Virus record (IMG/VR): IMGVR_UViG_3300033064_005685
Location: 1 to 22,582 of that record
Origin: a virus
DNA length: 22,582 nt
Direction: 5' to 3' (one strand)
Both the position numbers and the translations under genes were made by a program. Positions within the stretch are counted from its first letter, which is position 1; every line of letters starts with the position of its first letter. Under the pieces are notes generated by a model, which ran no database searches, was not told the origin of the DNA, and saw only the letters and a list, made by a program, of their open reading frames with translations. Of this stretch, positions 3,901-22,582 are shown piece after piece.

Positions 3901-5426
3901 GCTACTTGAACAACCCCGCCGATTTTAACCTCTAAATACAATCCGGTTCCGTGAATGTTTTCAAGCCAAATGCGGTTGTTATCGTCTTCTCGATAAAAGA
4001 AATACGTTTCGCTCCCGGCGTGATCGGTGTGCTTAACCCAGAAATTGACAGTCCATTTGGTCGTGGGGTTAAAATCCGTGGTGGACGCACTAAAAAGCTG
4101 ACTATTATTTCCATTATCTAAAGAAAGCCCGCCTGTACCCCATTTTAAAGCGGCAGCGGCGATTGTCGCATTTACAGAAGTCGAAAATCCGTGAGTCAGA
4201 CTTCCAAAGTCAAGATACGACGTTGCCACCATATCCCCAACTTCAATAGCGGCGGCTATATCGGGAAGTGTGCCTACCTGCGTAAACGTCGATACTGAAG
4301 TGCCATCGACAACAAGTGCCCAAGCATCTGTGACGCCACCCCAACCACGAACAACTGCAACATGATACCATGTGTTGATTACGGGCGCCCACGTTGCACT
4401 TTCGGAAACAAGTCCTACCCCAGCAGTGCTTGTAGCCATAAAATAAAGTTTGCTATTATCGTGATCTACAAACAACGCCACATAACCATAAGCGGTTGCC
4501 TGACTGTAAAGACACATTTTCCCGGTTACGGCGCTGAACCTAACCCATGTGTCTATTTCAAATTCACTTGCCCCGAAGTTCCATACGGCATTATCATTCC
4601 ATGAAACATAATCGCCCGTGCCGTCCAACAAAAGAGACGTTTGCCCAAATTTTGCTTGAATTACATCTAGTTGTGCGTTGCCGCCAACCGTGTCGGCGTT
4701 TCCTGTTGGTCCACCCGTGGAACTATCGGCAATCGCAACCGCTTCAGCATCGGCTCCATCGTTATGAAGCAAAAGAACCGTTGACGAATCATTCCCCCCG
4801 CCAATAATTGCGATATCGTCCGCACCGGTCAGGTCGTTATTAACCTCGATTGAATAGTCTTTCGGGTTTGTCATAGCGATGTCAGTGGTGGTCGCTGCCG
4901 TAGAGGTGATAAACGCTGAGGCCTTCATCTCGTCACCGCCCCAGATAACTGATTCTACCCCATTGGCGTAGGCGACTTGACCATTTGCCGCCACCGCGAA
5001 CCTACCAAAGCCCGCCCCTGAAGCGTCTGTATAAGCGGCGGATGACAAGAACGTACCGGCAGTCGGTACAGCGGTTGTATTGTCGTAAACAACAGCATCG
5101 TCGCCGTGGATGAGGATATGGCTTTCGGCAGGGGAGTCTTTTCTGAAATGAAATCCGTTTTGAATCGTAGGCGCGCTGGTAATCGCGGTCGTGTTGACCC
5201 TTGTAAATCCCTTCACGCCTTCAATCCCCTGCTCATTGTAGCGCATATTGGTCAGGGTTTTGAAATTGTTCGCGCCTATCTTGGCCGGGTCTACATCCGG
5301 CAGCCATTGACCATCAAAGCGGTATTGAAGACCTTTTATGGGGTCGTCGGGTGTTTGGGGAAGTTCCTGGGCAAAACATACCGATGCGAAAATGAACAAA
5401 AAAGCTATTAAAAATATCTTTCTCAT
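912..5426 (-). CDS. Large tail protein with LamG domains and signal peptide
   Basis: This 1504-residue virion protein is probably a tail nozzle or stopper with a beta-rich core; stretches such as LSYSGPIIFDG and the aromatic- and Gly-rich repeats recall beta-propeller tail proteins. Residues 1-19 (MRKIFLIAFLFIFASVCFA) look like a Sec signal peptide, and no in-frame alternative start lies just after them. LamG/concanavalin-like domains sit at roughly 217-400, 407-575 and 1262-1480. The usual closing motif GWIDEFRISKG of the first appears only near 618, after the second domain. The third is inserted just before the last 24 residues. LamG domains bind glycans or serve as adhesive modules in other proteins, so a host-surface role is plausible. 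It overlaps the upstream gene by ATGA. Confidence 0.85.
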   Translation of the reverse strand: MRKIFLIAFLFIFASVCFAQELPQTPDDPIKGLQYRFDGQWLPDVDPAKIGANNFKTLTNMRYNEQGIEGVKGFTRVNTTAITSAPTIQNGFHFRKDSPAESHILIHGDDAVVYDNTTAVPTAGTFLSSAAYTDASGAGFGRFAVAANGQVAYANGVESVIWGGDEMKASAFITSTAATTTDIAMTNPKDYSIEVNNDLTGADDIAIIGGGNDSSTVLLLHNDGADAEAVAIADSSTGGPTGNADTVGGNAQLDVIQAKFGQTSLLLDGTGDYVSWNDNAVWNFGASEFEIDTWVRFSAVTGKMCLYSQATAYGYVALFVDHDNSKLYFMATSTAGVGLVSESATWAPVINTWYHVAVVRGWGGVTDAWALVVDGTSVSTFTQVGTLPDIAAAIEVGDMVATSYLDFGSLTHGFSTSVNATIAAAALKWGTGGLSLDNGNNSQLFSASTTDFNPTTKWTVNFWVKHTDHAGSETYFFYREDDNNRIWLENIHGTGLYLEVKIGGVVQVAAIGAEIADANWHHIAICKVGDDWGVYDNGTQISYDSYTYASTLTGIARIGGTNAANFDLAGYVDDFQMVRFNSFSARPVVGLTDTITIPTAAHTPDGNEKLLFPFDLMGVAGWIDEFRISKGVSRWVANFDFPVRPYATSALYWLVGSTRPLQGVKFYVDEANAEASKMTAWEWDGNSWNGLSITDNTDTGASLATTGTVTWTSTVDTSATKFMEGRLFYWYQFNIDAGEATIYKCTVDAAMQPIVDIWDGVYRQPIQFQPYKSAIYVDYTLEVNDSDSTYYADLADLTSSEWVIAQFDERMTAVKFLIVAGTPNETAAIVTIYYWNGEGWATVGTVSDETLDDAGLDTSLSQSGVMSWTPPSIEQEFSREMFGSVGYTYKFVWDATLTTAKSQVNVVLGIPAQLPIMPFKFPATYKNRLMLCGYTEGGEGNRCDYSVTHAPQAFNGYESSMDGAQSLYFGGAEELTAGTEIYNRFGSNIFSMFLALKKTEIYLLSGSTPDATDSDPFRIFPISYNLGCPAPLTLATAEVGFKIAADVERNIAIWLSYSGPIIFDGAVPYIVHGIDKYFDVQGDDYLGASNIESATGWYDQSHKEYNLRISTKWFVYDLVRKRWFEQNVGAADPPECGFPVQDTNGTKYVYAGADSGFMLRLDNGDHWYQTEIVHTIETGDFWPSDNTWDLTRLYKSKFLWEGIETVDSVDITHYADASVTGTSLTSVLIGDMTNRITRDTQNTNLLGWTHRLKFVTTRDDGLIGYWPFDESAGTTAADACYDNDGTLEGTMTDADWVTGNIDNGIEFDNVDDRVDCGNSSPLDELGTSDFSVAFWVNCDGIGGSSQYNIAFSKWVDATDQIFISTYGGSQQLYLHLEKNNVQATNNWSDLLAFDATWHHVVVTVNRTTDLATAYMDGSASSSTLDLSSLPADISNAANVAWGNTHDGGGGTYELNGKIDEPRIYNRALTADEISALYTQSTNGNDKRFRPLGWAYKYGVERHDE

Positions 5427-6520
5427 CTGGTTACGTTGCTTTCCGGTTCTTTGGGTCTATCGACAAAATCCGTTCGGAATCTGTCCAACTCCTCGTAATA
5501 TTCGGCCATGAGCCTTGCGGATTTGCCGTATTGTTTCGCCTTTAAAAACCCCTGGGCCGCGACATATAGTGTCAATGCTCTGTCATAAACGACAGGAACA
5601 AGTATGTTTTGAACCGCTGTAACCGCAGACGGCGTGGAAACAAAATGCACGGTTGCCGTCGGCGTTGCGTCGGTATAGCCTACTGCGGTATTGGAAGCAT
5701 TTAAGGCGGTTGTACCAAATGTAAACGCACCGTCAGATTTATAGGCGGTCACATATCCTATACGAATATGCCCGTCCGCAACCCCTGGAAGACCGGCGAC
5801 GGAAAACGCTGTAGTCGAATAACCCACCGCATTATGATAAGCCTCAACAGCGTCAATCGTACCGTCGCTACCGATATCGAAGGCTACAGCACCGTATTTC
5901 GTTGCCGGAACAACATCGTCACCCGGAGCGGTGCCCGCAGCTACAGCGGCTTTTGTGTATAGCTTGTCCCTTATTTTGTAGCTGAAAGCGCCGGATGAAA
6001 CAGCGGTTGTGGTCGAACCAATGGCAAGGTTAGCATCGGTGATAAGATCCAGCGCGGGAAATACGCCCACACTTCCATTCCATTCATACCACCATAGCGG
6101 AACAACGTCGTTTGAGTGTCCTATGGATTGCGGGTTTTTCTTTACGAGACCCTTTTTAACCCCGTTTCTGTCAATATAAACTACTGTAGAAACGTCAAGA
6201 TAGGGGCCGGTAAGGGCGTACTCGACGGTATTTTCCAGCAAGGTTACAGACTCGCTTGATTCAAGACAGCGGGTTCTCGCAACGATATCCTTTGTACCTT
6301 CATTGACCCACACGAGAAGCTCCGCATCGGACCAAAATGACGCAGTAGCCTCATTAAGATGATATCTCGCATTGGTAATGATTGTGGATGACAGCGTGGA
6401 AGAAGTCTGTTGAGATCCACCAAAGGCAATACCGGCAATAAGAAAACTTATGGCAAGTGCAATAAATAACAAAATGTTTTTTGCACAACTTAACCTGTTG
6501 TAAATAAGGAATCTTTTCAT
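5423..6520 (-). CDS. Head-tail adaptor-like protein with N-terminal signal sequence
   Basis: This 365-residue protein has residues around 46-75 (TNARYHLNEATASFWSDAEL and following) that match the opening of phage head-tail adaptor or joining proteins. The C-terminal helix-rich part (ALTLYVAAQGFLKAKQYGKS) fits the same fold. Roughly residues 165-285 form a Gly/Ala/Thr-rich insert of a kind seen in phage structural proteins. Unusually, the N-terminus has a basic region followed by about 18 hydrophobic residues (NILLFIALAISFLIAGIAFG), an apparent signal peptide or anchor. I see no ATG, GTG or TTG after it that would give a cytoplasmic form. Both ends overlap neighbours by ATGA, so the gene is embedded in the tail operon. 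The adaptor call is by resemblance. Confidence 0.8.
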   Translation of the reverse strand: MKRFLIYNRLSCAKNILLFIALAISFLIAGIAFGGSQQTSSTLSSTIITNARYHLNEATASFWSDAELLVWVNEGTKDIVARTRCLESSESVTLLENTVEYALTGPYLDVSTVVYIDRNGVKKGLVKKNPQSIGHSNDVVPLWWYEWNGSVGVFPALDLITDANLAIGSTTTAVSSGAFSYKIRDKLYTKAAVAAGTAPGDDVVPATKYGAVAFDIGSDGTIDAVEAYHNAVGYSTTAFSVAGLPGVADGHIRIGYVTAYKSDGAFTFGTTALNASNTAVGYTDATPTATVHFVSTPSAVTAVQNILVPVVYDRALTLYVAAQGFLKAKQYGKSARLMAEYYEELDRFRTDFVDRPKEPESNVTR

Positions 6521-7536
6521 GCGCTCATTCCCTCGGACATATAAGGCTGTCTGCCGGAAAGTTTGCGGCTGTATTCAAATAGTTCGATTTCGTCCCTGGC
6601 AGATACCGCGATCCAGTAATTAGCGTTTAATATCTCAATCTTCGTGTTGTCGCCGGCGTCCTTGGTTTTTCTGCGGTGTTTCTGTGAGTCCATGGCAAGA
6701 TTAGACAAAGCCCTGTGCCAAATGTATTCATGGATTTGACCGGGACATGGCGGGTAAACACCTTCTGACCAATCGCTTAAATCGGGGTATTCTTTTTCCA
6801 GCGACACCTTGACATTGTATCTTTGACCCGGCCAGTTGTACCAAAACAGAAGATGCTCGATAGACGCGAAAGTACCATATGCGTATTGCTGATACCTCCA
6901 TCTTGACGGACGCCCCCCGGGTTGAGATACCCTTTGAGCGGGTGCCTCTGAAATAGGGTCGGATGGATACAGGTCAAACTGTACGTCATAGACCCTTTTT
7001 ATGGCCCATTCGTAGTGAGTATCGAGACCTGTAGCATCGGCAGGTTCGATGGTCGACGCCGGCAGAACAATCCCGGCATGGTAAATAGTCCCCCCTGAAT
7101 CGTAGGCCTCATAATCCGTGGTGTCGATTTCGGTATCCCCGTTGATTGATTTCAGAGAAAGAGTTGTAGCATCTATCCTGACCGCCCGGAAAAGACGGCT
7201 ATTGAGCCGGTGAAGTTGGTTTTCCCCGTTGATACCCTCAATGAATATGATATCATCGGTCTGAAATCCATGGTCGGTTCCGAGATCCGGGTCAACCGAA
7301 TCGGCAGTTATCACCCCTGGATCGGCAGCGGTTATCGCGGATATCACAGCATAATAGCGCGTGAAAATCTCATCGTAAACCTCACGGTTCCATTCTAACG
7401 GCATCATGCCTAAATTGGATATCTCACGATTTGCGGTGATTAGAGCGTTTTGGATTAACTCATCCTGGTCCGTTCTTGACATATCCGTCAGAAGATACCG
7501 CTTGCACCTGTCCACCAAATGTAGGTTTGAAATCAT
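6517..7536 (-). CDS. Tail tubular/adaptor-like protein with E1-FCCH-type insert
   Basis: This 339-residue virion protein has an N-terminal helical region (roughly 1-60) and a C-terminal helical region (roughly 255-339) that resemble phage connector or tail tubular proteins. Between them, residues about 64-155 look like the E1-FCCH beta-domain often inserted in phage tail proteins: VITADSVDPDLGTDHGFQ, then DIIFIEGINGENQLHRLN, ending near YEAYDSGGTIY. It starts 2 bases after the upstream stop and ends in an ATGA overlap, so it is translated as part of the tail gene block. The exact role (tube, adaptor or nozzle) is inferred from order: capsid gene first, large tail protein last. Confidence 0.8.
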   Translation of the reverse strand: MISNLHLVDRCKRYLLTDMSRTDQDELIQNALITANREISNLGMMPLEWNREVYDEIFTRYYAVISAITAADPGVITADSVDPDLGTDHGFQTDDIIFIEGINGENQLHRLNSRLFRAVRIDATTLSLKSINGDTEIDTTDYEAYDSGGTIYHAGIVLPASTIEPADATGLDTHYEWAIKRVYDVQFDLYPSDPISEAPAQRVSQPGGRPSRWRYQQYAYGTFASIEHLLFWYNWPGQRYNVKVSLEKEYPDLSDWSEGVYPPCPGQIHEYIWHRALSNLAMDSQKHRRKTKDAGDNTKIEILNANYWIAVSARDEIELFEYSRKLSGRQPYMSEGMSA

Positions 7537-9146: not shown

Positions 9147-9803
9147 TTAGTTATTGAACACTATGGTTCTTAGCTGTTCGTTTTCTTTTTCCAATTGCTC
9201 AATTCTATTCTTTGCATCAGATAATTCCTGAGCGCGCATATCATTGTGCAATTTTGTGTGCTTGCTCGAAGACAGGGCTTCAAGATTCTCGGGTCGGTTG
9301 TCTGTACTGACCCCGTTTTTGTGGTGAACATGCCAACCTTTAGGAACTATTTTTCCGTTTGCCTGTTCCCAAATAAAAATATGTTCAAGAATATACCCAC
9401 TCTTTCTTGATTGAGGATATTCTGGCTTGTAAATCAACCAATAATCTTTTTCCCTTGATTTGTGCTTGTGCAAATATCGTCCACCCTGCCAATTTTTATT
9501 TTTCGGACCTTTAAGGCTCTTGTACGCAAGAGCAATTCCTTCTGTATCCGTTCGCATCTTAACACCAACTTCCTGTAATCTTCTCCACACAACCATATGA
9601 GATAGATTGAACCTTGAACCTATCTGCATACAACTAAGACCATCAACATAAGACGCTGCTAATATTTCACTCGGAACACTCTTGTTTTTCTGGCTTTCAT
9701 CCTTGCAGAATCTTGAACAATATTTCCCCTCGCCTCTTTTTACCCAACACGCTTGCGTTTTAAACAATTTCCCGCAATTCATACATTCTTTAATTATTGG
9801 CAT
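9147..9803 (-). CDS. Free-standing HNH homing endonuclease
   Basis: This 218-residue protein starts at the ATG at 9803, just after AAGGAGGATTTT; an upstream in-frame ATG extends the frame to 9881 but would include the promoter region. Domains in order: a Cys4 zinc site (C7, C10, C29, C33), a helix-turn-helix around 44-83 (QIGSRFNLSHMVVWRRL), an HNH nuclease domain around 138-185 with GWHVHHKNGVSTDNRPENLE, and a C-terminal coiled coil. Such enzymes cut DNA near their own insertion site and spread by repair. The gene separates the capsid gene from the next structural gene, has its own sigma70-like promoter, and appears more AT-rich than its neighbours, consistent with recent acquisition. No intron or split gene is apparent here. 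Confidence 0.93.
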   Translation of the reverse strand: MPIIKECMNCGKLFKTQACWVKRGEGKYCSRFCKDESQKNKSVPSEILAASYVDGLSCMQIGSRFNLSHMVVWRRLQEVGVKMRTDTEGIALAYKSLKGPKNKNWQGGRYLHKHKSREKDYWLIYKPEYPQSRKSGYILEHIFIWEQANGKIVPKGWHVHHKNGVSTDNRPENLEALSSSKHTKLHNDMRAQELSDAKNRIEQLEKENEQLRTIVFNN

Positions 9804-9830
9804 AAAATCCTCCTTATGGTTATTTAAGGC

Positions 9831-9859
9831 ATTATACCATGTATGGTTTGCGCGTTCAA
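9831..9859 (-). promoter_or_regulatory. Sigma70-type promoter of the HNH gene
   Basis: On the minus strand there is a perfect TATAAT -10 box (9836-9831) with an extended TGG in front, and a -35-like TTGAAC (9859-9854) at the ideal 17-base spacing. It lies 28 bases before the HNH start codon and its SD. The endonuclease gene can therefore be transcribed by the host polymerase independently of the late operon. Confidence 0.75.
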
Positions 9860-9920
9860 GACTTTTCGTCAACATTGTCAAAGTTTCCGATTAATCAATT
9901 TTATCTAACAAAATCAACTA

Positions 9921-10940
9921 CTAAGATGGAAGAGCCGTTGCTGCGACCTCATATCTGGCTACCCAGGCCGAATTCAAAATCACGCTGGTGTAATAAATCT
10001 TCCAGCTTACAAAGCCTGACTGTCCAAGTTCGTCGCCTTTTACCGCCTTCGGATATACAACAGCGGGTTTAATCGCATCCATACCCTGAAGGCGAACAAC
10101 GCCGTAACCGTCTTTAGCCACGACAATAAGCGGATACACGTCGGCGGCTAAGGATGAACCCGGAATGTCCCCACTGGACAGATACGTTGTACCCGCCGTA
10201 CCCGCTGCCAGCCAAGGCTCGAAAAGCGGGGTCAAAAGAAACCTATGCGCCCCTAAAGAACCCACCTCTGACGGATGCAGCATTTTGCTACTGTCGGCAT
10301 AGTTTCTCACCGGCACAAAACCCTCCATACCTTCAATGTCGGCTTTCAGGTCTGTGTGGCCCATGGCGATAAACGCGGGATCCACCGGCTCGGTAGAAAT
10401 CATCTGCGAAGCCTTAATCATCGATGAGATTTTTTCGGCCTTGTTTTTGGAAAAACTTCTTTCGATTCTCTTGAAATCTCCGGGCAGGGGCGGGCTGTTG
10501 ATGGCCCCCCTGGACCCTGCGTTGTTGGCGTAAAACGCATTTGAACCGGCTTTAAGCACGGCAATGGTAACCACTTCTACGGTTTCCCCCATTTGGTCGC
10601 CACAAAGGTTCACGGTTTCCTTGGGTACGTCGTCTTCGTGGGTGTCGAACACAAGGTCTGTCAGTTCGGCCCAATCACCGTATTGCTGAAGCGTACTGGT
10701 TATGTCGGTTTTTGCCAGTTTGCGGCCCGGTGGTGTGATGCCTTCCGAAAGTGGTGCGTCCGCTGTCGGAAAGTTTGTGTACCGGCGCCATTTGGATGTG
10801 AGTGTGGTGTGTTTTCCTTGGGTAAATGCTTGACCGAACTTCGCAGCAACTAACTTGTAGTTGCCCCGTCGCAATAGCCGTTTTTTGACTTTGCCGGCTG
10901 ATCTATACCCGATATCTCCGACTGTGTTGAAATTAGGCAT
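9921..10940 (-). CDS. Major capsid protein, N4-gp56 family
   Basis: This 339-residue protein matches the N4-gp56-type major capsid family. I see KWRRYTNFPTADAPLSEG around 50-67, then TPPGRKLAKTDITSTLQQYG, DLVFDTHEDD, and near the C-terminus GQSGFVSWKIYYTSVILN followed by AWVARYEVA. It would form the icosahedral shell. The acidic scaffold-like gene lies upstream with only a small zinc-ribbon gene between. The ATG at 10940 follows GGAGG at 10952-10948. This start region lies inside a long inverted repeat, described separately, so expression of this most abundant virion protein may be translationally controlled. Length is close to the family's usual 330-400 residues. Confidence 0.93.
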   Translation of the reverse strand: MPNFNTVGDIGYRSAGKVKKRLLRRGNYKLVAAKFGQAFTQGKHTTLTSKWRRYTNFPTADAPLSEGITPPGRKLAKTDITSTLQQYGDWAELTDLVFDTHEDDVPKETVNLCGDQMGETVEVVTIAVLKAGSNAFYANNAGSRGAINSPPLPGDFKRIERSFSKNKAEKISSMIKASQMISTEPVDPAFIAMGHTDLKADIEGMEGFVPVRNYADSSKMLHPSEVGSLGAHRFLLTPLFEPWLAAGTAGTTYLSSGDIPGSSLAADVYPLIVVAKDGYGVVRLQGMDAIKPAVVYPKAVKGDELGQSGFVSWKIYYTSVILNSAWVARYEVAATALPS

Positions 10941-11003: not shown

Positions 11004-11234
11004 CTATCCGATTAGTTGGTAAGTCGTGAATTTTCCACAACTTGCGCATTTAAATGCTTGTGGTCTTGGCGATGCTTCTCCTTTTAGAAACAATCTGTTA
11101 CAGATTCTTCTTATTTTATCATTGTAGTGCGGACAACGCAATTCTTGCCCGGGCTTAACCGTGAGTTTCACGTCATCCGGGATCTCGTCAACTATAAAAG
11201 TCGTCGTCGTCGTCTTTGGATTCAAATCCGGCAC
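11004..11234 (-). CDS. Com-like zinc-ribbon protein
   Basis: This 76-residue protein has four cysteines placed to bind zinc: C34 and C45 in one half, C63 and C66 in the other. The text around them (ELRCPH, then ICNRLFLKG, then FKCASCGK) resembles phage Mu Com, a zinc-finger translational activator that opens a hairpin over the mom start, although the first cysteine spacing is longer here. The GTG start at 11234 is supported by GGGAGG six bases upstream and lies inside the end of the scaffold-like gene, a 47-base overlap. The gene ends just before the predicted hairpin over the capsid start. An RNA-binding role is inference; it could instead be a minor virion or DNA-binding protein. Confidence 0.75.
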   Translation of the reverse strand: MPDLNPKTTTTTFIVDEIPDDVKLTVKPGQELRCPHYNDKIRRICNRLFLKGEASPRPQAFKCASCGKFTTYQLIG

Positions 11235-12165
11235 GTTCTTCCTCCCTGTCTGTCACGGCGCCTGCTTTAGGTTTGGGTTTACTTTTCACGGTCATTTTAT
11301 GAATAGCGTCGAATTTTTCCTTTTTGGCTTTTTTCGCCGCATCTTTTTCCGCAATTTCTTCCTTTGCCGTGTCGAGTCCGGATTTACCCAAGAATCGTTT
11401 ATAAAGCCTTGCGTGGTCGTCCGGGTCTTTGGACTTTAAAAGCGCCTGAATCTCTTTCGGTTGTTCGGGTAGCCACTTCTTGAAATCTTCGCTGTTGTAA
11501 ATCTTTTTGGCATCCTTAACACCGTCATGCTTATTCGTGAGTGTGCGCATAAATAACTTGTCGTCGAAGTCCTCGCCCAGGCCGGCTATATCCAAGTTGG
11601 TCGCTAAATACTTATTGGCGACAAGTTGGCGGATGAGATTGTTTGCTATGGTCGTAATCATAACCGGTATTTCAGGGTCAGTTTCGAGCACCGACTTAAA
11701 ATTAAGCTCGGTTCCGTCTTCCAGGGTTACGATGTCGGGAAGCAGATTCGGTGGAATAATGCCCCTAAAAAACGATAAACTCTTGGCGTCGTGCTGCTCT
11801 GCGAAGGGATTGTAAGCACCTTCTTCACGACGCTGCACCTTCTCGGCGTCTTCGGCTACCTTTTTGTCGGTCTCTTCTTTTTCCTGCTCGGCAACGAGTT
11901 CTTTCCCGCGAATCGTATCCTCATCGTCTTCTTCGTCTTCCCCGAGACCTTCCGCTACCTTGTCATCGGGCTTTTCCACCTTGTCATCGGGTTTTTCAGC
12001 TTCGGCTTTTTCCACCTTGTCTTCGAGCAAAATCGGCTCTTCCTGGTCTAATCCTTCAAGGCCGTCTTCCAGGTCGTCATCAACATCAGAAGCAAATCCG
12101 GCTGCCTCGTCCGCCGGGATGTCGGGTGTTTCTTTTTCTTCGACCTCTTTTATGGGCTCTTCCAT
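11188..12165 (-). CDS. Probable capsid scaffolding protein
   Basis: This 325-residue protein has a very acidic N-terminal third, a mixed central region (about 115-250), and a basic Lys-rich segment (about 265-310) before a short acidic tail with five aspartates. Such a soluble, helical, highly charged protein immediately before the capsid gene is typical of phage scaffolding proteins, which guide shell assembly and then leave. The C-terminal basic patch would suit capsid binding. Residues 57-70 are two copies of EKPDDKV. The ATG at 12165 follows AAAGGAG. No catalytic motif is seen. The call rests on composition, length and gene order rather than on a recognised family. Confidence 0.75.
   Translation of the reverse strand: MEEPIKEVEEKETPDIPADEAAGFASDVDDDLEDGLEGLDQEEPILLEDKVEKAEAEKPDDKVEKPDDKVAEGLGEDEEDDEDTIRGKELVAEQEKEETDKKVAEDAEKVQRREEGAYNPFAEQHDAKSLSFFRGIIPPNLLPDIVTLEDGTELNFKSVLETDPEIPVMITTIANNLIRQLVANKYLATNLDIAGLGEDFDDKLFMRTLTNKHDGVKDAKKIYNSEDFKKWLPEQPKEIQALLKSKDPDDHARLYKRFLGKSGLDTAKEEIAEKDAAKKAKKEKFDAIHKMTVKSKPKPKAGAVTDREEERAGFESKDDDDDFYS
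11957..11998 (-). repeat. 21-bp tandem repeat in the scaffold-like gene
   Basis: Two adjacent 21-base units (11957-11977 and 11978-11998) differ at two positions and encode EKPDDKV twice. A degenerate third copy follows on the high-coordinate side. The unit keeps the reading frame, so copy-number changes would only lengthen the acidic N-terminal region. Confidence 0.8.
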
Positions 12166-12166
12166 T

Positions 12167-12268
12167 TTAAATCTCCTTTGGGTTATTTAATATACATGCC
12201 GCTAAAATGACCGCAACCAGGACCAATAGCACTTGAATCCATGGGTTACTGATTAATTCGATCAACAT
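12167..12268 (-). CDS. Tiny membrane peptide (33 residues)
   Basis: An ATG at 12268, inside the end of the TPR gene, opens 33 codons ending just before the scaffold-like start. The product is one membrane segment (WIQVLLVLVAVILAAC) flanked by short polar ends. LAAC could be a lipobox, but cleavage would leave only nine residues. GAGGA lies about 12 bases upstream, a weak ribosome site. It fills the gap between two confident genes and follows a membrane-protein pair, so a small membrane partner is possible. No family is recognised, and a chance ORF remains possible. Confidence 0.4.
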   Translation of the reverse strand: MLIELISNPWIQVLLVLVAVILAACILNNPKEI

Positions 12269-12647
12269 AACTTGGTTTTATCCTCTCGATTCTTTCCGCA
12301 AATTCCAGGGACTTTTCCTTATTACCGATATACACATGCGAATAAGTCATATTAACCAACAAATTTAACTGATTCGGATAGTATTTTAAGCTGGTGTTGA
12401 AAAAAGAAAGCGATTCTTTATACATTTTCTTCTTCAAGAGTGCCACGCCAGCGAAGTTGTTAAGAAGGATATTATACGGATTTGCTTCAAGCCCTTTTAG
12501 TGCAAAATAAACCGTATCGTCGAATTTTCCTAACCCTTCGGATATTCGGGCAAGTTCTATATATTTCAACCCTTCAATCCGTTTAAGGTGAACGTGGAAT
12601 AGTATAATTATACAGAGAATGCACAACATCATAGCGATTATTTTCAT
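12246..12647 (-). CDS. Membrane-anchored TPR protein
   Basis: This 133-residue protein has an N-terminal membrane anchor (about 2-18, IIAMMLCILCIIILFHVH) followed by about three tetratricopeptide-like helical pairs, e.g. ALKGLEANPYNILLNNFAGV and SLKYYPNQLNLLVNMTYSHV. It overlaps the O-antigen polymerase-like gene by ATGA, so the two are probably co-translated. Many Wzy/WaaL-type proteins carry C-terminal TPR repeats on the same chain; here the TPR part is a separate gene. The likely role is a periplasmic helper of the upstream membrane protein, an inference from context and family architecture. The sequence appears more AT-rich than the virion genes around it. Confidence 0.85.
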   Translation of the reverse strand: MKIIAMMLCILCIIILFHVHLKRIEGLKYIELARISEGLGKFDDTVYFALKGLEANPYNILLNNFAGVALLKKKMYKESLSFFNTSLKYYPNQLNLLVNMTYSHVYIGNKEKSLEFAERIERIKPSYVDRINQ

Positions 12648-13771
12648 ACTGTTAAAGCCCCAAGCATACAGGCGGTAAAAAGCACCGGCATTGGCTGGAG
12701 CATTGGAAAACTAAAGGATGCAGCCACCCCGACGCTTACCAGGGAGGCCGCGACATATTGCCAATTATCGTTGAATTTGATGTTTTTTACGGCTACGACA
12801 AATACCAGGACCATGAGCGCAATCCCGGCCCACCCGGTTTCCGCCCACAAATGCAAGAAGTCATTATGCGCTGCCCAGACTTCAACGTGAGTTGACATAG
12901 CCATCGCGTCACTTTCAGCGTAGTACAAAGGGTACATTATACTGAAATTTCCAAAGCCTACACCAGACGGATAATCGATAGCCATTCTCGATGCGTTTCG
13001 CCACCAATCAAGTCTTTCCAGTAATCCGTCCGGAGGGGAAATCGCTGCGTACAAGCCAACTGCGAGCACCGAAACAACAACCGGTTTGTACCACTTTTTC
13101 ACGATGCATAGAAAAAGCACCGCAGCGAATAAAGCTAAAACCGCTGCATCCGAGCGGCATACACCAATGTAGGCCAGCATCGGAATGGAAAGCGGTAGCA
13201 GAAACTTGAAATACTTCTTATACAAACACCCCGCCAATGGGAGTGTGAAGACGACATAATGAGCCGCCATGTTTTTATTGGCAAAAGTTGCTGCCGGCGG
13301 AAATGATTGGGGTATAAAATTTATCATATTCAACCATTGCATTAAGCCGATTATCGAAACGAGAAACCCGCTTAAAAATAACGCTATGAAAAGGTGTTCA
13401 ATGTTTACCACGTTCACAATTATTAATATCGTAAGCGCACAAGCCAGCCATGTAAGGACACGCATGAAGCCTTCGTATGGGTTTATTGCCCATAATAAAC
13501 TTGCAAAACAGTAACCGACAAAGAGCAAAACGGCCAGGAAGACCTGCGGGATTTTAAATTGCAGGTCTTCCACCGCGTAGTTACATAGGATTATTGCCAG
13601 CAACGCCAACACGCCGATTTGAATAACCATTTCCTTTGGCGCATGAGCGTAGAACCTCATGCCGCTTTTAAACACAAACGGTACTGCGAACACGAAACAG
13701 CAAAATAATCCGCTGACTAATTTGCCGTAACCGTTGCTCCAACCGCTAAGGGTTCGTACCTGATCCGCCAT
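12644..13771 (-). CDS. O-antigen polymerase/ligase-like membrane protein (Wzy_C)
   Basis: This 375-residue protein has about ten hydrophobic segments and the Wzy_C signature: TFANKNMAAHYVVF (162-175), WWRNASRMAIDYPSGVGFGN (256-275) and AAHNDFLHLWAETGW (300-314). The large loop between membrane segments with conserved Arg and His is typical of O-antigen polymerases and ligases, which use lipid-linked glycans on the periplasmic side of the inner membrane. The ATG at 13771 follows AGGGG at good spacing and overlaps the out-of-frame tail of the upstream gene. It is somewhat shorter than the usual 400-450 residues but looks complete. It lies between portal-proximal and capsid genes of the phage, so late expression and host-surface change are inferred. 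Polymerase versus ligase cannot be told from sequence. Confidence 0.9.
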   Translation of the reverse strand: MADQVRTLSGWSNGYGKLVSGLFCCFVFAVPFVFKSGMRFYAHAPKEMVIQIGVLALLAIILCNYAVEDLQFKIPQVFLAVLLFVGYCFASLLWAINPYEGFMRVLTWLACALTILIIVNVVNIEHLFIALFLSGFLVSIIGLMQWLNMINFIPQSFPPAATFANKNMAAHYVVFTLPLAGCLYKKYFKFLLPLSIPMLAYIGVCRSDAAVLALFAAVLFLCIVKKWYKPVVVSVLAVGLYAAISPPDGLLERLDWWRNASRMAIDYPSGVGFGNFSIMYPLYYAESDAMAMSTHVEVWAAHNDFLHLWAETGWAGIALMVLVFVVAVKNIKFNDNWQYVAASLVSVGVAASFSFPMLQPMPVLFTACMLGALTV

Positions 13772-13842
13772 GTAATGGCCCCTGTGTTAGTTGCGCTTGT
13801 TGCGAGTTCAATCGTACCTACCGGCACGACTACAGTAAAACC
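13717..13842 (-). pseudogene. Out-of-frame C-terminal end of the upstream virion-like gene
   Basis: In the +1 frame relative to the upstream signal-peptide gene, codons from 13842 encode a plausible beta-rich end, with VPVGTIELATSATNTGAITW then RIRYEPLAVGATVTAN and a stop at 13719-13717. The sequence reads like the C-terminus of a structural protein rather than chance coding. It has no start of its own here, so it is reached only by a frameshift near GGGTTTT (13843-13837) or is a remnant after deletion. Confidence 0.5.
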
Positions 13843-14203
13843 CGTCGGCTGCCGTGTAGCTCTCAGCGTGTCCGGGCAGAACGTGGATAATATCCCCGTT
13901 GTTGGCCGTACACTGGTTAATGGCATAATCCACCGTGTCAAACGGTTTCTCCCAGGATTCGCCGTAATCGTTGCCCCTGGTATTGGCCCCACTCGCAGAG
14001 TCCACATACCAGACGTCGCCAACGGCATTCCCAGAGAGAGCCACGCCGTCAACAGTTACGCTTCCGTATGCGGTAATCCCTTTCTTAAAAACCTGCTCGG
14101 CCTTCCAAACATTCTTTTTCAATGTCGAAGGGGTCGCCGCAAAAACCAATCCCGCCATCAGCACAAGTGCCATGCAAATGGATAAAACTTTGAATTTCTT
14201 CAT
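13808..14203 (-). CDS. Signal-peptide beta-helix-like protein, probably frameshifted
   Basis: This 131-residue protein begins with a clear Sec signal peptide (MKKFKVLSICMALVLMAGLV, cleavage likely after VFA). The mature part VWYVDSASGANTRGNDYGES followed by WEKPFDTVDYAINQCTANNG resembles the opening turn of right-handed beta-helix (pectate-lyase-like) proteins, which normally continue for hundreds of residues. Here the frame ends abruptly after TAADGF with nine residues that look out of frame, while a sensible C-terminal sequence continues in the +1 frame. An internal deletion with a frameshift, or a +1 shift on TTT-T, would explain this. The ATG at 14203 follows GGAGGTAATAAA, which overlaps the upstream stop. 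Role: exported or virion-associated, unknown. Confidence 0.75.
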   Translation of the reverse strand: MKKFKVLSICMALVLMAGLVFAATPSTLKKNVWKAEQVFKKGITAYGSVTVDGVALSGNAVGDVWYVDSASGANTRGNDYGESWEKPFDTVDYAINQCTANNGDIIHVLPGHAESYTAADGFYCSRAGRYD

Positions 14204-14207
14204 TTTA

Positions 14208-14447
14208 TTACCTCCGTTGGTTTAAATCGTTTAAACATTGGATTGGTTTTTGCAAAACTCTTTTAAATCCTATCTTTATGCCAAGTTTGAATCTAAAATC
14301 TTCGTGTATAATATCGCTTATCTGCAACCCGGATTCCTCCGCGTCTTCCATCAGCTTTATTTCTTCTTCCAACCATTTGATGAGCGCCTGACCGTATTCC
14401 GTAGTCGAAAGATGCGATAACAACTGCTTTTCGGTATCCGTCAACAT
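14208..14447 (-). CDS. Small helical hypothetical protein
   Basis: This 79-residue protein is charged and probably all-helical (EKQLLSHLSTTEYGQALIKW, then acidic EEEIKLMEDAEESG). I use the ATG at 14447, which overlaps the upstream stop as TGATG; the preceding TTG codon at 14450 is less likely. No motif, membrane segment or zinc site is seen. It is the third of three small genes after the portal gene, so an accessory head-assembly role is possible but not shown. Confidence 0.75.
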   Translation of the reverse strand: MLTDTEKQLLSHLSTTEYGQALIKWLEEEIKLMEDAEESGLQISDIIHEDFRFKLGIKIGFKRVLQKPIQCLNDLNQRR

Positions 14448-14800
14448 CAACCGGACTTTATAACCGTATTAGGAACAACGATGAGCTTTGAAGGCTTCCT
14501 GTCAATCTCCCCCTGATAGACCTCGTGAAGCTGACCGGATTTGTTTAAAACCCGTATCTCCATGTGGGCAGAATCCGGGATATAAACATCGACAAAATTA
14601 CGATAGTTTTTCCCATCCGGACCGGTAAGCCTCGATACAACGGTTGTCATTCTTTTATTCACCGCGTCTTCTTTGAGAAACGTCAAGCACGGGGTTTTAA
14701 TCCTGTACCATCCTTCGCCCATCGGGTGCGGAGTTTGGTCGAACTTGCCGATAAAGTCATGTATCCCACCAATTAAGTGAATTATCTCGTCATTATACAT
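14447..14800 (-). CDS. Hypothetical portal-proximal protein
   Basis: This 117-residue protein has mixed alpha/beta character and one cysteine. The ATG at 14800 follows AAAGGAGAGG and overlaps the upstream gene by 8 bases; its own stop overlaps the next start as TGATG. Features include GEGWYRIKTPCLTFLKED and a C-terminal KLIVVPNTVIKSG. I do not recognise the family. Tight coupling to the portal gene suggests expression with head proteins. Confidence 0.75.
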   Translation of the reverse strand: MYNDEIIHLIGGIHDFIGKFDQTPHPMGEGWYRIKTPCLTFLKEDAVNKRMTTVVSRLTGPDGKNYRNFVDVYIPDSAHMEIRVLNKSGQLHEVYQGEIDRKPSKLIVVPNTVIKSG

Positions 14801-15101
14801 TTTGAACCTCTCCTTTTGTTTGGGTTTCTAATTTAGGTACATCCCACTCAATAGACATGAAATTCTCACCGATTCTCACACCCAATATCTTTATGCCCTC
14901 GTACTCGTAAATCGCTAAGGCAAACGGATCGTGGGGGAAAAAGGTTTCCCGGACAATGCCATCTGCATAACTCACACCAAGTTTTTGAAGTTGCAACTTC
15001 AGCAACCTCTCGGTTTCTTCCTCTATCCTGTTGAAAAGATTCTCGGCAATATCCTCGATTTTGGTTTCTTCATCCACGCCCTGGTCTGTGATTTTATCCA
15101 T
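14793..15101 (-). CDS. Hypothetical acidic protein after portal
   Basis: This 102-residue protein has an acidic helical N-terminal half (about 1-45) and a probable beta-rich C-terminal half (DPFALAIYEYEGIKILGVRI). The ATG at 15101 follows GGAGG and overlaps the portal stop by 8 bases. No known motif is visible. The position suggests a partner of portal or head assembly, which is inference. Confidence 0.75.
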   Translation of the reverse strand: MDKITDQGVDEETKIEDIAENLFNRIEEETERLLKLQLQKLGVSYADGIVRETFFPHDPFALAIYEYEGIKILGVRIGENFMSIEWDVPKLETQTKGEVQNV

Positions 15102-17175
15102 TATCTTTAGCCTCCTCGGGCTTATCGGGTGCGTAAAGCCTGTTTAACTTAGCCTCTAAAATAACCTCTTCCATGTCATCAATATGCTCCGCTTCGAGAG
15201 CGTTCAGTTTTTGAACATGCTCTAATTCCGATTTTTCGAGGTCTTGCTCGTGCTCCTCGGCGGATAGTTCGAGTTTGTTTTCGTGCTCCTGATCTTTGCC
15301 GGCCTGCTCGAACGTGGCGTCTAATTCCTTTTCCATTACGGCCATTTGAATCGCTTTTTGCTCGGCTTCCGCCTGTTGCTCGGCCTGCTGCTGCGCTTCT
15401 TCAGCCATTTCCTCTTCGGATTTTATGAATTTCTCAGGATCTTCGTCCATCGATTCGTAAATTATATCCAAATGAGGCTTGACCTTAATGTAGGGGAATA
15501 GAATCTCGCTTGACACAAACATCCCGAGAGACTGACGCATTCTTTCGCCGCGGACTTCTTTATTCTGGAATGAAGTGAACCCGCCGGCTATAACTTTGGC
15601 GTTGACCTTGCACGATTCGTCCTCACCGAATTCCATGTTGTATTCGTACATGTCCCGGATTTCAGGTTCTATAAACTGCTCATCGTTGTTCCTAATGGCC
15701 TGCCCGATATATTTCCCGGCGTTCTCGGTCATCTGCCTAACTTCATAAGCGGTGTCCGGTTTGTGTTTTGGAAGATTAAAACCCTGCATAATCGTGGGAA
15801 CCATGGATACACGATCCCCGAACTCCAGCATGAGGTTTATTCCCGAAAGCAGTGTTTCCCCCACGTCCGGGGTTGTGATGAACATAACCGCCTTGCGCAC
15901 ATCATCGCACGAATCAGCAATATCGTATCTCTTCCCAGGTTGAATATCGTTAAGCTGGTCGGGATTGTTGAAGAACCTTGCCTTAACCGCCGAAGTCACA
16001 TTGGCAGATAGTTTCTTGTTGTCCTCATACGCCCGAATCATGCCTACGAGAGACCCCTGCACGTCCTCCATGTTGTCTGCGATGCCCGTTCCGGTGCTTT
16101 CGTCAAGATTCTGCTCGACCGTCCACATCTTATGGACTCTCTTACCGTCATCGTTTCGGATATACCGGATGATTTCCTTGTCAACAATCTCGCCCATGAT
16201 TTCAATATCATCACCGCTATCCTCAGCATCTTCGTATTCGTTGATTAAACCGATATAGGCGATTTCGTTTCTTCCCAAGCGCAGGATATCCTCGAATTCA
16301 TCCACCAGTTTCCGGGGGGCTCTCGTATAAAACTCGTATCGCGTGAATCTCTTTTTGCGGTCGCTAATGTCGGCTTTGCCCGGATGCTCGGCAGGGTCGT
16401 CTTGCGGATCAGAGTCGTCCCTGCTTTTGCTGTTGATAACTCTTTTAATGGCTTTTTCTATGTACCCGGGCTTTCCGATTAACTGCTTTAAATCAAAAGC
16501 CGATGAGCGCAAAACCTCGGCATAGCCCTCACCATCCTGAAGATTGTCACTATCCATGTCCCAAACCATATTCCAAACCGAAACATAGAGATGGCCGGGA
16601 ACGTCCTCGGGAATTCTTTGAAGCTCATAACGGGTGTATTGAGACAACTCTTCCGGGGCCATATACTCAGCCGCAGGGCCGATATCCATGGGGACTTGTA
16701 CGAATTCCGTGCTGATAACCGGTTCGACGTTAAACTTCGAAAAGGCCATACCGTAATAACCACCAGACAGCCATTTTTTCATGTACTCACGATCCGCATG
16801 ACGCATAGATAACTGCTGCTCTATTTTGCTCGTCATGCGCTCGATTCTGGTGTCTCTTTCCTGGTTTTCGGTATCTTCCTCGTAGGGTGATGGTTCGAGC
16901 GTAAACGGGATCTTGCCGGCCTTCAGCACCGTATCGAGCAAAACGGAATAAAACGCCCAGACCTTAACCCGCACAAAACCTATCCATGTATCCGACCGCC
17001 AGCCAACCGCCTCGCCCTTCTTCCATTTTCTCCTGCGGAAATCGCGGTTAGTGACAGCTTCGAAATTGCGAATCAGTTTGCCCTCAAGCGTGTCTTTCTT
17101 CTGTCTTGCCCAACGCTGTATGGACTTGTCTACAAATTCCGGTAAACCACTTATGTACGTTGCATCATCCGGCAT
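15094..17175 (-). CDS. Portal protein, P22-type
   Basis: This 693-residue protein has the length and layout of the P22-like portal family: N-terminal WRSDTWIGFVRVKVWAFYSV, a long mixed core, and the crown-side region with PTIMQGFNLPKHKPDTAYEV followed by RQMTENAGKYIGQAIRNND. The last 100 residues are a very Glu/Gln/Lys-rich coiled coil (about 590-680), like the barrel of P22 portal. As a dodecamer it would form the DNA entry channel and bind terminase and adaptor proteins. The ATG at 17175 is preceded by GGGTGAT and lies just 19 bases after the T-tract of a strong terminator. Terminase is not in the window. Family identity is by visual match. Confidence 0.88.
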   Translation of the reverse strand: MPDDATYISGLPEFVDKSIQRWARQKKDTLEGKLIRNFEAVTNRDFRRRKWKKGEAVGWRSDTWIGFVRVKVWAFYSVLLDTVLKAGKIPFTLEPSPYEEDTENQERDTRIERMTSKIEQQLSMRHADREYMKKWLSGGYYGMAFSKFNVEPVISTEFVQVPMDIGPAAEYMAPEELSQYTRYELQRIPEDVPGHLYVSVWNMVWDMDSDNLQDGEGYAEVLRSSAFDLKQLIGKPGYIEKAIKRVINSKSRDDSDPQDDPAEHPGKADISDRKKRFTRYEFYTRAPRKLVDEFEDILRLGRNEIAYIGLINEYEDAEDSGDDIEIMGEIVDKEIIRYIRNDDGKRVHKMWTVEQNLDESTGTGIADNMEDVQGSLVGMIRAYEDNKKLSANVTSAVKARFFNNPDQLNDIQPGKRYDIADSCDDVRKAVMFITTPDVGETLLSGINLMLEFGDRVSMVPTIMQGFNLPKHKPDTAYEVRQMTENAGKYIGQAIRNNDEQFIEPEIRDMYEYNMEFGEDESCKVNAKVIAGGFTSFQNKEVRGERMRQSLGMFVSSEILFPYIKVKPHLDIIYESMDEDPEKFIKSEEEMAEEAQQQAEQQAEAEQKAIQMAVMEKELDATFEQAGKDQEHENKLELSAEEHEQDLEKSELEHVQKLNALEAEHIDDMEEVILEAKLNRLYAPDKPEEAKDNG

Positions 17176-20567: not shown

Positions 20568-20803
20568 CAAGTACCACGCATCATTGCATTAGTTAATGTA
20601 ATGCTGCCCTCAAAAAGCACCGAATCATCTTCGGCAAAAACATCGGAATGAAGCCCAAGTGGGCTGTTCGGCCCCTCCCTCACCACAGTGCCGCTATTTC
20701 GTGCGGTAAATAAAATAATCACTCCGTCAGCGAGTTCCTTTAAATACGGATACATTATAATTTGATCGCTTAAAGGTTCTTTAACCGACACCAAAATTCC
20801 CAT
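20567..20803 (-). CDS. Small hypothetical protein after the methyltransferase
   Basis: This 78-residue protein starts at an ATG preceded by GGGGAGG and overlaps the methyltransferase end by 23 bases. It is probably beta-rich (VIILFTARNSGTVVREG, SVLFEGSITLTNAMM), with no cysteine, signal peptide or membrane segment. No family is recognised. Tight linkage places it in the same transcript as the sugar genes. Confidence 0.72.
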   Translation of the reverse strand: MGILVSVKEPLSDQIIMYPYLKELADGVIILFTARNSGTVVREGPNSPLGLHSDVFAEDDSVLFEGSITLTNAMMRGT

Positions 20804-21917
20804 TTTTTACCTCCCCCTGCATAAATCTGTTAATTGATCCAAAAGTCCAGATATTGATTTTATCCGACGAAATCTGGCGTTTTATTTCATCTAAATAATT
20901 CTCGTTCATAACTATTACGGTTTCGACAGGAACCTTATCTAAAATGTCAGGACTTGAAATTTTATGCCCCGTCTTTCCAACATAGCGTCCCTGTTTCTTT
21001 GGATTGATGTCGATAAGCCCAAGAATTCGTTTTCTATCCGGGTCCATAAGGTTAACGAAAGTCACTCCTTTGGCCCCCGCTCCCCAGACAACAATGTTGC
21101 GTTCTTTTGCTATGAAACTTCGATATTTCTCAAGTTCATCTCTGAAAAGGCCATGCTTCGGAAAAACAGAGTTTGGCGTCGCAGAGGCTCTTATTTTCCC
21201 GAGATCCCCGATTACATAAATATATTGTCCACCGAAGAGTGTCCCAGTGTCGGCATCTGCGAACAAAGAGCTAAGGGTGCGCTTTGTAAAGTAATTACAA
21301 TGTTCGTAACAAAGATCCCAAAACGCATTATTTTTACTTATCCACTCAAAACACGGGACCTCAATATAGATGCGACCACTCCATTTATTGGCTTTTGCGA
21401 TTTGGTGCAAAAATGTTACAGGATCGTGAATATGTTCTAATGTATGCCGCATCAAAAAAGTGCTTGTATCCCCAAATAAATACCTTTCATCGAAGTAGTC
21501 CTTTACAATTCCGGGATGGTTTCCTTCATACGCAGGATCGAAACCCAGGATATTTTTCCCTGTTTTTGCCAACTTGCTGAAAAAGTATGCCTTGCCGCAA
21601 CCGATTTCGACTATCCGCCCATTAAGAAGGCCGCGCTTCTCCAAGAATTCGATGAGCTTTTTGAGGTAAATTTTAAAATACTCGGAATGTGCCTGTTCGT
21701 CCTGATAACTTTTACCGTAAACAAGCCGGGTGGGATCAAAAGCCATGTTGAAAACGAATCCACAGAAGGAACACACAACCAGATCCAGTTCGCCGGTCGG
21801 GGCCTGCTGCGCGACGTCTAATGAACTATACCCCCTGTTTTGAAAGCCCGGCAATTCTGTTGTTTGGTATATGGTGCTAAGATTATCATCTCCACAAAGC
21901 GGACAGAAAATCAGCAT
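20781..21917 (-). CDS. Sugar C-methyltransferase-like, SAM-dependent
   Basis: This 378-residue protein has the three-part layout of sugar C-methyltransferases such as TylC3 and NovU. An N-terminal zinc domain has C5, C8, C49 and C52 (CPLCG, CSFCG). The SAM-binding fold has IVEIGCGKAYFF (102-113) and RHTLEHIHDP, then the family motif YEHCNYFT. The C-terminal Rossmann-like domain has VVWGAGAKGVTF. In this family the enzyme adds a methyl carbon to an NDP-keto-sugar made for O-antigens or antibiotics. It overlaps the upstream sugar epimerase-like gene by 7 bases, so the two probably act on one deoxysugar. Exact substrate unknown; a non-sugar substrate cannot be excluded. Confidence 0.88.
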   Translation of the reverse strand: MLIFCPLCGDDNLSTIYQTTELPGFQNRGYSSLDVAQQAPTGELDLVVCSFCGFVFNMAFDPTRLVYGKSYQDEQAHSEYFKIYLKKLIEFLEKRGLLNGRIVEIGCGKAYFFSKLAKTGKNILGFDPAYEGNHPGIVKDYFDERYLFGDTSTFLMRHTLEHIHDPVTFLHQIAKANKWSGRIYIEVPCFEWISKNNAFWDLCYEHCNYFTKRTLSSLFADADTGTLFGGQYIYVIGDLGKIRASATPNSVFPKHGLFRDELEKYRSFIAKERNIVVWGAGAKGVTFVNLMDPDRKRILGLIDINPKKQGRYVGKTGHKISSPDILDKVPVETVIVMNENYLDEIKRQISSDKINIWTFGSINRFMQGEVKNGNFGVG

Positions 21918-22582
21918 TTTCCAATAATACCCCGTAATTTGGCGTTATCCCCCCAAAAAGCCATCGACTCGTATTCCGGATAGGGATAGAATCCTAAGTC
22001 TAACTGAATTTTGTATCCCTTTTTACAAATGTATTCTTCCACGAGACGCCTGATGGAAACTGGTATTCCGCTGCAACAATTAATCGGCCCCTGGGTCTTC
22101 TTTTGAATGGCAATGGCTGCAATGTGTTCAGCTACGGTTTCGACAGGAAGATAGTCCCTTAATTGCTCCCCGCCTGACATTCTAAAACGATCTTTTCCCT
22201 CAACAACAGCCCTGTCAAGTTGGGGAAATAAAGAAGCGCTATTTTGCCCTTCTCCATAAATGTAAAAGAGCCGAACCCATTGAAATGTCGCATCCCTGGT
22301 AAGATGTTGCAAACATTTGTTGAGGCAATCCTTCGCTATGCCATAGGGAGTCGTCGGCATGGTCACCGCGCTTTCCTTTAAACAACCTGATTGGAGACCA
22401 TATTCAAGACACGTTCCAATTCCCACCACTTGCTTTAACCCACCCTCTAATAAACTTTTTATAAAACTGTAATGGATGGGCGTATTGTACTCGAAATGAA
22501 ATGCATCGTGATAATTTGGCAAACCAGTCCAAGCAAGGTCAATAAGACAGTCGGGTTCCAAAAAGAATCGGTATAGATCGTA
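21911..22582 (-). CDS. NAD-dependent epimerase/dehydratase (SDR), partial
   Basis: The frame is open to the right window edge, so the N-terminus with the glycine-rich nucleotide motif lies outside; the 223 codons seen are the C-terminal part. LIDLAWTGLPNY, the catalytic-type Y-x3-K in TPYGIAKDCL, and RLFYIYGEGQ followed by RDYLPVETVAEHIAA are typical of extended SDR nucleotide-sugar epimerases, dehydratases and ketoreductases. It overlaps the C-methyltransferase gene by 7 bases. Together they suggest part of a nucleotide-deoxysugar pathway, with more genes probably upstream of the window. The specific reaction is undetermined. Confidence 0.88.
   Translation of the reverse strand, partial: YDLYRFFLEPDCLIDLAWTGLPNYHDAFHFEYNTPIHYSFIKSLLEGGLKQVVGIGTCLEYGLQSGCLKESAVTMPTTPYGIAKDCLNKCLQHLTRDATFQWVRLFYIYGEGQNSASLFPQLDRAVVEGKDRFRMSGGEQLRDYLPVETVAEHIAAIAIQKKTQGPINCCSGIPVSIRRLVEEYICKKGYKIQLDLGFYPYPEYESMAFWGDNAKLRGIIGKC

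Follow-up and report, generated by a model that had tools for sequence, protein, structure and literature searches.

A WaaL-fold ligase gene paired with the gene of a predicted exported protein in the head region of uncultured phages

Introduction

Enzymes of the WaaL family transfer undecaprenyl-linked glycans in the periplasm, and among phages Wzy_C polymerases are familiar from lysogenic conversion. For the PglL/PilO ligases, enzyme and pilin acceptor have been recognised by their adjacent-gene arrangement, with 21 of 31 PglL homologues lying beside or close to pilin genes that are the likely acceptors (PMC3643930). In phage D3, His300 of the polymerase Wzy-beta is essential by mutagenesis (PMC4815439).

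Here we describe a Wzy_C gene in a 22,582-base IMG/VR virus fragment (the window, analysed over its whole length), its placement among head genes, and the gene of a predicted exported protein that directly precedes it.

Results

Layout of the window

Nearly all large ORFs of the window lie on the minus strand. In transcription order, an epimerase fragment, a methyltransferase gene, small genes, the portal gene and three small conserved genes are followed by genes for a signal-peptide protein, the Wzy_C protein, a TPR protein, a 33-aa hydrophobic ORF and a scaffold-like protein, and then by those for a small Cys-rich protein, the major head protein, an HNH endonuclease and the tail. The features that concern the argument are as follows.

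15094-17175, minus strand: portal / head-tail connector (phrog_332, E 2.5e-25; matches portal proteins of HMO-2011-like phages)
14208-15101, minus strand: three small genes (14208-14450, 14447-14800 and 14793-15101), conserved between portal and slot
13808-14203, minus strand: predicted exported (signal-peptide) slot protein, directly upstream of the ligase (MKKFKVLSICMALVLMAGLVFA/ATP; strong SD GGAGGT)
12644-13771, minus strand: Wzy_C / WaaL-fold membrane protein, 375 aa, putative lipid-linked-glycan ligase or polymerase (PF04932, profile, model and active-site residues)
12246-12647, minus strand: membrane-anchored TPR protein, 133 aa (TPR_2, E 1.2e-5; ATGA overlap with the ligase stop)
12167-12268, minus strand: 33-aa hydrophobic peptide ORF, uncertain
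11188-12165, minus strand: acidic scaffold-like protein, in relatives conserved between the slot and head-protein genes
9921-10940, minus strand: major head protein (phrog_1357, E 1.8e-49; relative of the N4-gp56 family head protein of Pseudoalteromonas phage Y3)

The first-pass annotation had described the region 12167-13771 correctly, coordinates included, and had placed it on one strand between the portal side and the scaffold. This placement holds, with the portal and small genes upstream and the scaffold-like and head-protein genes downstream, all on the minus strand. Its account omitted the signal-peptide gene at 13808-14203, directly upstream of the ligase. A chimeric contig is ruled out, since L003 and L005, two phage loci whose head proteins are 86% and 84% identical to that of the window, carry Wzy_C at the identical position.

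The major head protein gene has an HNH endonuclease gene (9147-9881, minus strand) as its neighbour. At the 5' end of the minus strand lie a methyltransferase gene with a C-methyltransferase C-terminal domain (20781-21917, minus strand) and a truncated NAD-dependent sugar epimerase gene (21911-22582, minus strand). These two genes, upstream of the packaging genes and absent from L005, possibly serve sugar-nucleotide supply. The only hints of a host are MAG contigs labelled Desulfobacteraceae and Deltaproteobacteria, labels that may reflect mis-binned phage.

The WaaL-fold ligase

The claim of a complete Wzy_C protein is borne out. The ligase ORF is intact, encodes about nine hydrophobic segments and scores above the PF04932 cut-off (33.5 bits against 31.7 in the Pfam scan; 37.6 bits in a six-frame search). 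A profile of nine phage Wzy_C sequences had a sole match in the PDB, WaaL 7tpg (E 5.7e-15). The AlphaFold model of the ligase (pLDDT 76, pTM 0.77) aligns with the same structure in VIA-align (Z 23.8, rmsd 4.0, 339 residues), with FtsW/RodA as the runner-up fold (Z 12.2); Foldseek alone did not recover WaaL from this model. PHROGs, NCBIfam and phmmer against the PDB returned no ligase match for the window protein. A single-sequence search with the window ligase found no match in viral contigs or phage records because the sequences are too divergent, so that profiles were needed.

Residue numbers of the window protein were counted from the profile alignment, in which Arg253 and His302 align with Arg265 and His313 of WaaL 7tpg, the equivalents of the catalytic R288 and H338 of E. 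coli WaaL. Among 32 phage Wzy_C proteins, the His and a GxG motif are each kept in all 32 and the Arg265 equivalent in 31. The first conserved WaaL Arg, Arg191 in 7tpg and R215 in E. coli, is less clear: the window protein has an Arg near this position that remains unaligned, and most phage proteins have no conserved Arg there. His300 of D3 Wzy-beta shares the alignment column of window His302. Conservation of the active-site residues across the phage proteins argues, at the level of sequence, for working enzymes. Homology and fold rule out a chance ORF, and the intact frame and retained active site rule out a pseudogene.

The TPR protein and the 33-aa ORF

The downstream gene had been read as encoding a membrane-anchored TPR protein coupled by ATGA. 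Its 133-aa ORF does carry an N-terminal membrane segment and the ATGA overlap is present, with a TPR_2 match that is weak (25.4 bits, under the cut-off of 27). The protein is 26% identical to the product of an ATGA-coupled TPR gene in locus L236 (E 9e-10). In cellular relatives, at about 26-32% identity, Wzy_C and TPR parts reside in one protein; those found in the Desulfobacterota-like class genomes tested are 31-32% identical. The cellular fusion L191, a single 715-aa ORF, matches the window ligase (E 7e-27) and then the window TPR protein (E 4e-10) in the same order, in agreement with the earlier remark that a TPR part often fused in this family is separate here. By homology and gene order, the window ligase and TPR protein are a split form of the cellular Wzy_C-TPR protein, encoded by two ATGA-coupled genes.

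A possible tiny membrane peptide had also been proposed. The 33-aa hydrophobic ORF exists, but it has no clear ribosome-binding site and is missing from L003 and L005, while in L236 a 62-aa peptide with a single membrane segment occupies the equivalent place; its status as a gene is therefore uncertain. Homology to Iap of phage D3 was ruled out for want of sequence similarity.

The slot protein of the window

The window slot protein is 58% identical to the N-terminus of the L003 slot protein. Towards the 3' end its frame is interrupted, and a tail like that of the family is read in a different frame, ending near 13717; within the slot region (13717-14203, minus strand) this out-of-frame tail overlaps the ligase start. 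The tail, ending ...NTGAITWRIRYEPLAVGATVTAN, is similar to the terminus of the L103/L236 partner, ...STGEITWYMTWIPYDNGTTVTAQ. An error of assembly, a step of gene decay or frameshifting may account for the break. The window partner is without the domain of about 130 aa common to other partners (below).

The slot in related phages

Searches with the head protein and portal yielded about 90 related loci. The slot Wzy_C proteins of L003 and L005 are only 17-25% identical to that of the window, and L085, L048, L019 and L103 also carry Wzy_C in the slot. In a maximum-likelihood tree, the slot proteins of L003, L005, L019, L048 and L085 form a separate clade (support 100/100), and those of the window and L103 group with the cellular Wzy_C-TPR protein L191 (97/91). 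These two clades in one slot indicate that it has been filled at least twice, by two unrelated Wzy_C lineages, as judged from the tree. Locus L019 (5481-7705), like L020, holds two tandem Wzy_C genes in one slot, with catalytic residues in both.

Locus L236 repeats the order of the window: exported slot protein, Wzy_C, ATGA-coupled TPR gene, single-membrane-segment peptide, scaffold and head protein. Placement of Wzy_C is conserved in relatives (L003, L005 and L236), and where the earlier annotation had considered absence from close relatives together with inactivating changes, the genes are found to be intact and syntenic. Wzy_C is present in only a minority of the related phages, and most of those without it still hold a slot protein at the slot. 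Among loci with a slot protein, a signal peptide was called in 41 of 58, one call (L132) probably being false.

Several further features of these loci were noted. In L011 and L132 (both 6374-7512) the slot holds a gene with a weak likeness to glycosyltransferase-2 and one like a hexapeptide acyltransferase, not Wzy_C, and the slot protein is without a signal peptide. The slot-protein signal sequences of L053 and L063 end in a lipobox-like FTGC, as would those of a lipoprotein. An ORF bearing a LAGLIDADG-like motif (LAGVLDSDGCISI), a possible intron or intein, interrupts the head-protein gene of L236 (3998-5725), and L132, on a MAG contig labelled Desulfobacteraceae, has an intein-like end (VAEGVVVHN) in its terminase ORF region (2-1770).

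Pairing of exported protein and ligase across phages

A profile search of all viral contigs with the slot family added many further phages with unrelated head modules. Across the phage Wzy_C loci, the same-strand ORF immediately upstream starts with a signal peptide in 32 of 32, against an expectation of 10% from the other ORFs in those loci, of which 30 of 290 have one (binomial 3e-32, the loci sharing ancestry and so not being fully independent). The rule used to call signal peptides was home-made rather than SignalP; it recognised OmpA, PhoA, LamB and OmpF, missed MalE, and is adequate for this comparison. The partner ORF typically overlaps the ligase start by about 30 nt. A TPR gene adjoins Wzy_C only in the window, L236 and L028/L029, the last two having Wzy_C and a TPR-like gene (weak TPR match) at the end of the tail module. 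The proposal that ligase and TPR protein form the unit consequently does not stand, and the recurrent unit is exported protein and ligase.

A homologous C-terminal partner domain of about 130 aa occurs in 16 of the first-found loci and, within the MCP/portal-derived set, only in phages having Wzy_C. In the reverse search of all viral contigs, using a profile of this domain alone built from five sequences, Wzy_C lay directly downstream in every one of the 14 loci returned. At least six families of head protein are found next to the pair (phrog_1357 in the window, 1005, 371/4523, 212, 1328 and 3437). By these sequence comparisons, the two-gene pairing of a predicted exported protein and a ligase recurs in dozens of unrelated uncultured phages; tblastn with seven queries (six ligases and one partner) gave no match in 50,697 phage records.

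A model of the slot-protein/common partner domain (mean pLDDT 60) resembles carbohydrate-binding modules (Z 11.8), a likeness that serves only as a lead because the model is poor and the jelly-roll fold common. In L213 (7094-10048), L215 (7022-8391) and L221 (6446-7533), one to several more consecutive signal-peptide ORFs lie downstream of the ligase.

Discussion

The pairing suggests that, late in infection, these phages attach glycans either to proteins that they themselves secrete or to the surface of the cell. We tentatively favour, at slightly less than even confidence, a late module of the envelope: in the periplasm, a WaaL-fold enzyme would transfer glycan from a lipid carrier, with the exported partner as the most likely recipient. 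The ligase gene would be one half of a conserved two-gene module within the late virion operon. Its upstream gene would give a phage protein exported through its signal peptide, and the downstream gene an enzyme embedded in the membrane, with the His and Arg of its active site predicted to face the periplasm. Made late and by translational coupling, the enzyme would be active on a glycan taken from a host undecaprenyl-linked donor. Transfer would most likely be onto the partner, as with PglL/PilO and neighbouring pilins, and less likely onto lipid A-core, and the TPR protein would probably serve to keep partner or enzyme at the membrane.

On the arrangement of the genes, the simplest reading would make the partner the acceptor or an obligatory co-factor, and it could also be a separate, co-expressed surface protein that serves the same end rather than a substrate. 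PF15864 (PglL_A) was not matched in a Pfam scan of the window protein and eight proteins of set A4, which returned only PF04932; the ligase is therefore not assigned as a PglL, and the likeness is one of logic only. Should the partner be the acceptor, phages would possess genes of their own for glycosylating proteins in the periplasm; as a source of O-glycan ligases and as a layer of surface interaction between phage and host, this would be new.

The first-pass annotation had proposed instead that the enzyme changes the host surface. It would re-polymerise or re-ligate the O-antigen or another surface polysaccharide before lysis, sparing progeny from binding to debris or excluding a second phage, as a lytic analogue of D3/epsilon15 conversion in which the exported protein is a helper or a second surface barrier. 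We regard this as possible, if doubtful. D3 wzy-beta does encode a Wzy_C protein that alters the O-antigen, and D3 offers the best precedent as regards chemistry; the nearest relatives of the window-type enzyme are cellular Wzy_C-TPR proteins. The likeness of the partner-domain model to carbohydrate-binding modules, weak as that model is, would suit the same purpose, as would the methyltransferase and epimerase genes at the far end of the minus strand. A hydrophobic mini-peptide nearby recalls Iap of D3, although the two are not similar in sequence. The expectation that serotype-conversion genes lie outside the virion genes holds for D3 wzy-beta, and in both D3 and VarioGold the gene is separate from the virion operon and runs against the late genes, unlike the window pair. 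Moreover, late lysis leaves little time for LPS remodelling, and constant one-to-one coupling with an exported protein would be unnecessary for it. Because the exported partner is conserved, a partner-directed role is at least as likely as avoidance of debris or superinfection.

A further set of signal peptides bears on what else the ligase might modify. By the same home-made rule, canonical signal peptides begin the SU10-type head-tail adaptor and the large tail protein of the window (5423-6520 and 912-5426, both minus strand), and they recur in L002, L004, L006, L012-L014, L016, L018, L028/L029, L037, L039 and L044. The adaptor and tail genes of the related isolates Y3, StenR_269 and Rollin have none, and a literature search found no paper describing signal-peptide adaptor or tail proteins in tailed phages. 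These signals raise the possibility that such phages send virion proteins by way of the periplasm, where the ligase would find its substrates. A broad version, in which an uncultured tailed-phage group exports some fibre, adaptor or tail proteins by Sec, O-glycosylates them in the periplasm with its WaaL-fold ligase, and has the products join virions or coat the host at lysis, seems to us unlikely. The stricter version, in which virion proteins with signal peptides enter the periplasm, receive glycans there from the ligase and are added to particles at lysis or later, we hold to be improbable. It would account for the presence of these signals in the window and most relatives and their absence from related isolates, and for the ligase-TPR pair that directly follows a signal-peptide tail protein in L028/L029. 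However, an exported adaptor is hard to square with completion of the head in the cytoplasm, and the tail proteins of L005 and L132 are without a signal.

That Wzy_C is a passenger acquired by chance and without a role in infection would fit its restriction to a minority of related phages, but is very improbable and already largely refuted by conservation, given active-site residues kept across very divergent sequences, the constant pairing and the repeated recruitment.

The favoured module, glycan transfer to an exported partner, can be set against the known systems. The window protein resembles WaaL (PF04932; PDB 7tpg) in fold, Pfam domain and periplasmic Arg265/His313 equivalents. In contrast to WaaL, it is phage-borne, is encoded beside an exported protein and a TPR protein rather than in an LPS locus, and does not clearly possess the Arg191 equivalent. 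With PglL/PilO it shares the Pfam family and a gene that adjoins a co-oriented, exported candidate acceptor outside LPS loci; it differs in that PF15864 is not detected, the partner is not a pilin and the carrier is a phage.

Cellular Wzy_C-TPR proteins such as L191 have the ATFANKNMAAH motif in common with the window ligase and a collinear TPR domain. They are single fused chromosomal proteins, whereas the phage form is two coupled genes with a much shorter TPR part. The D3 Wzy-beta/Iap/Oac system, together with epsilon15 and VarioGold, likewise offers a phage Wzy_C protein with an essential His and a small hydrophobic peptide in the vicinity. The D3 genes, however, form a lysogeny cassette between the tail and lysis genes, the upstream neighbour of wzy-beta is an HNH endonuclease rather than an exported partner, and Wzy-beta has no significant sequence similarity to the window protein. 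A constant pair of exported protein and ligase within the predicted late head operons of unrelated phages is an arrangement distinct from that of the lysogenic conversion genes.
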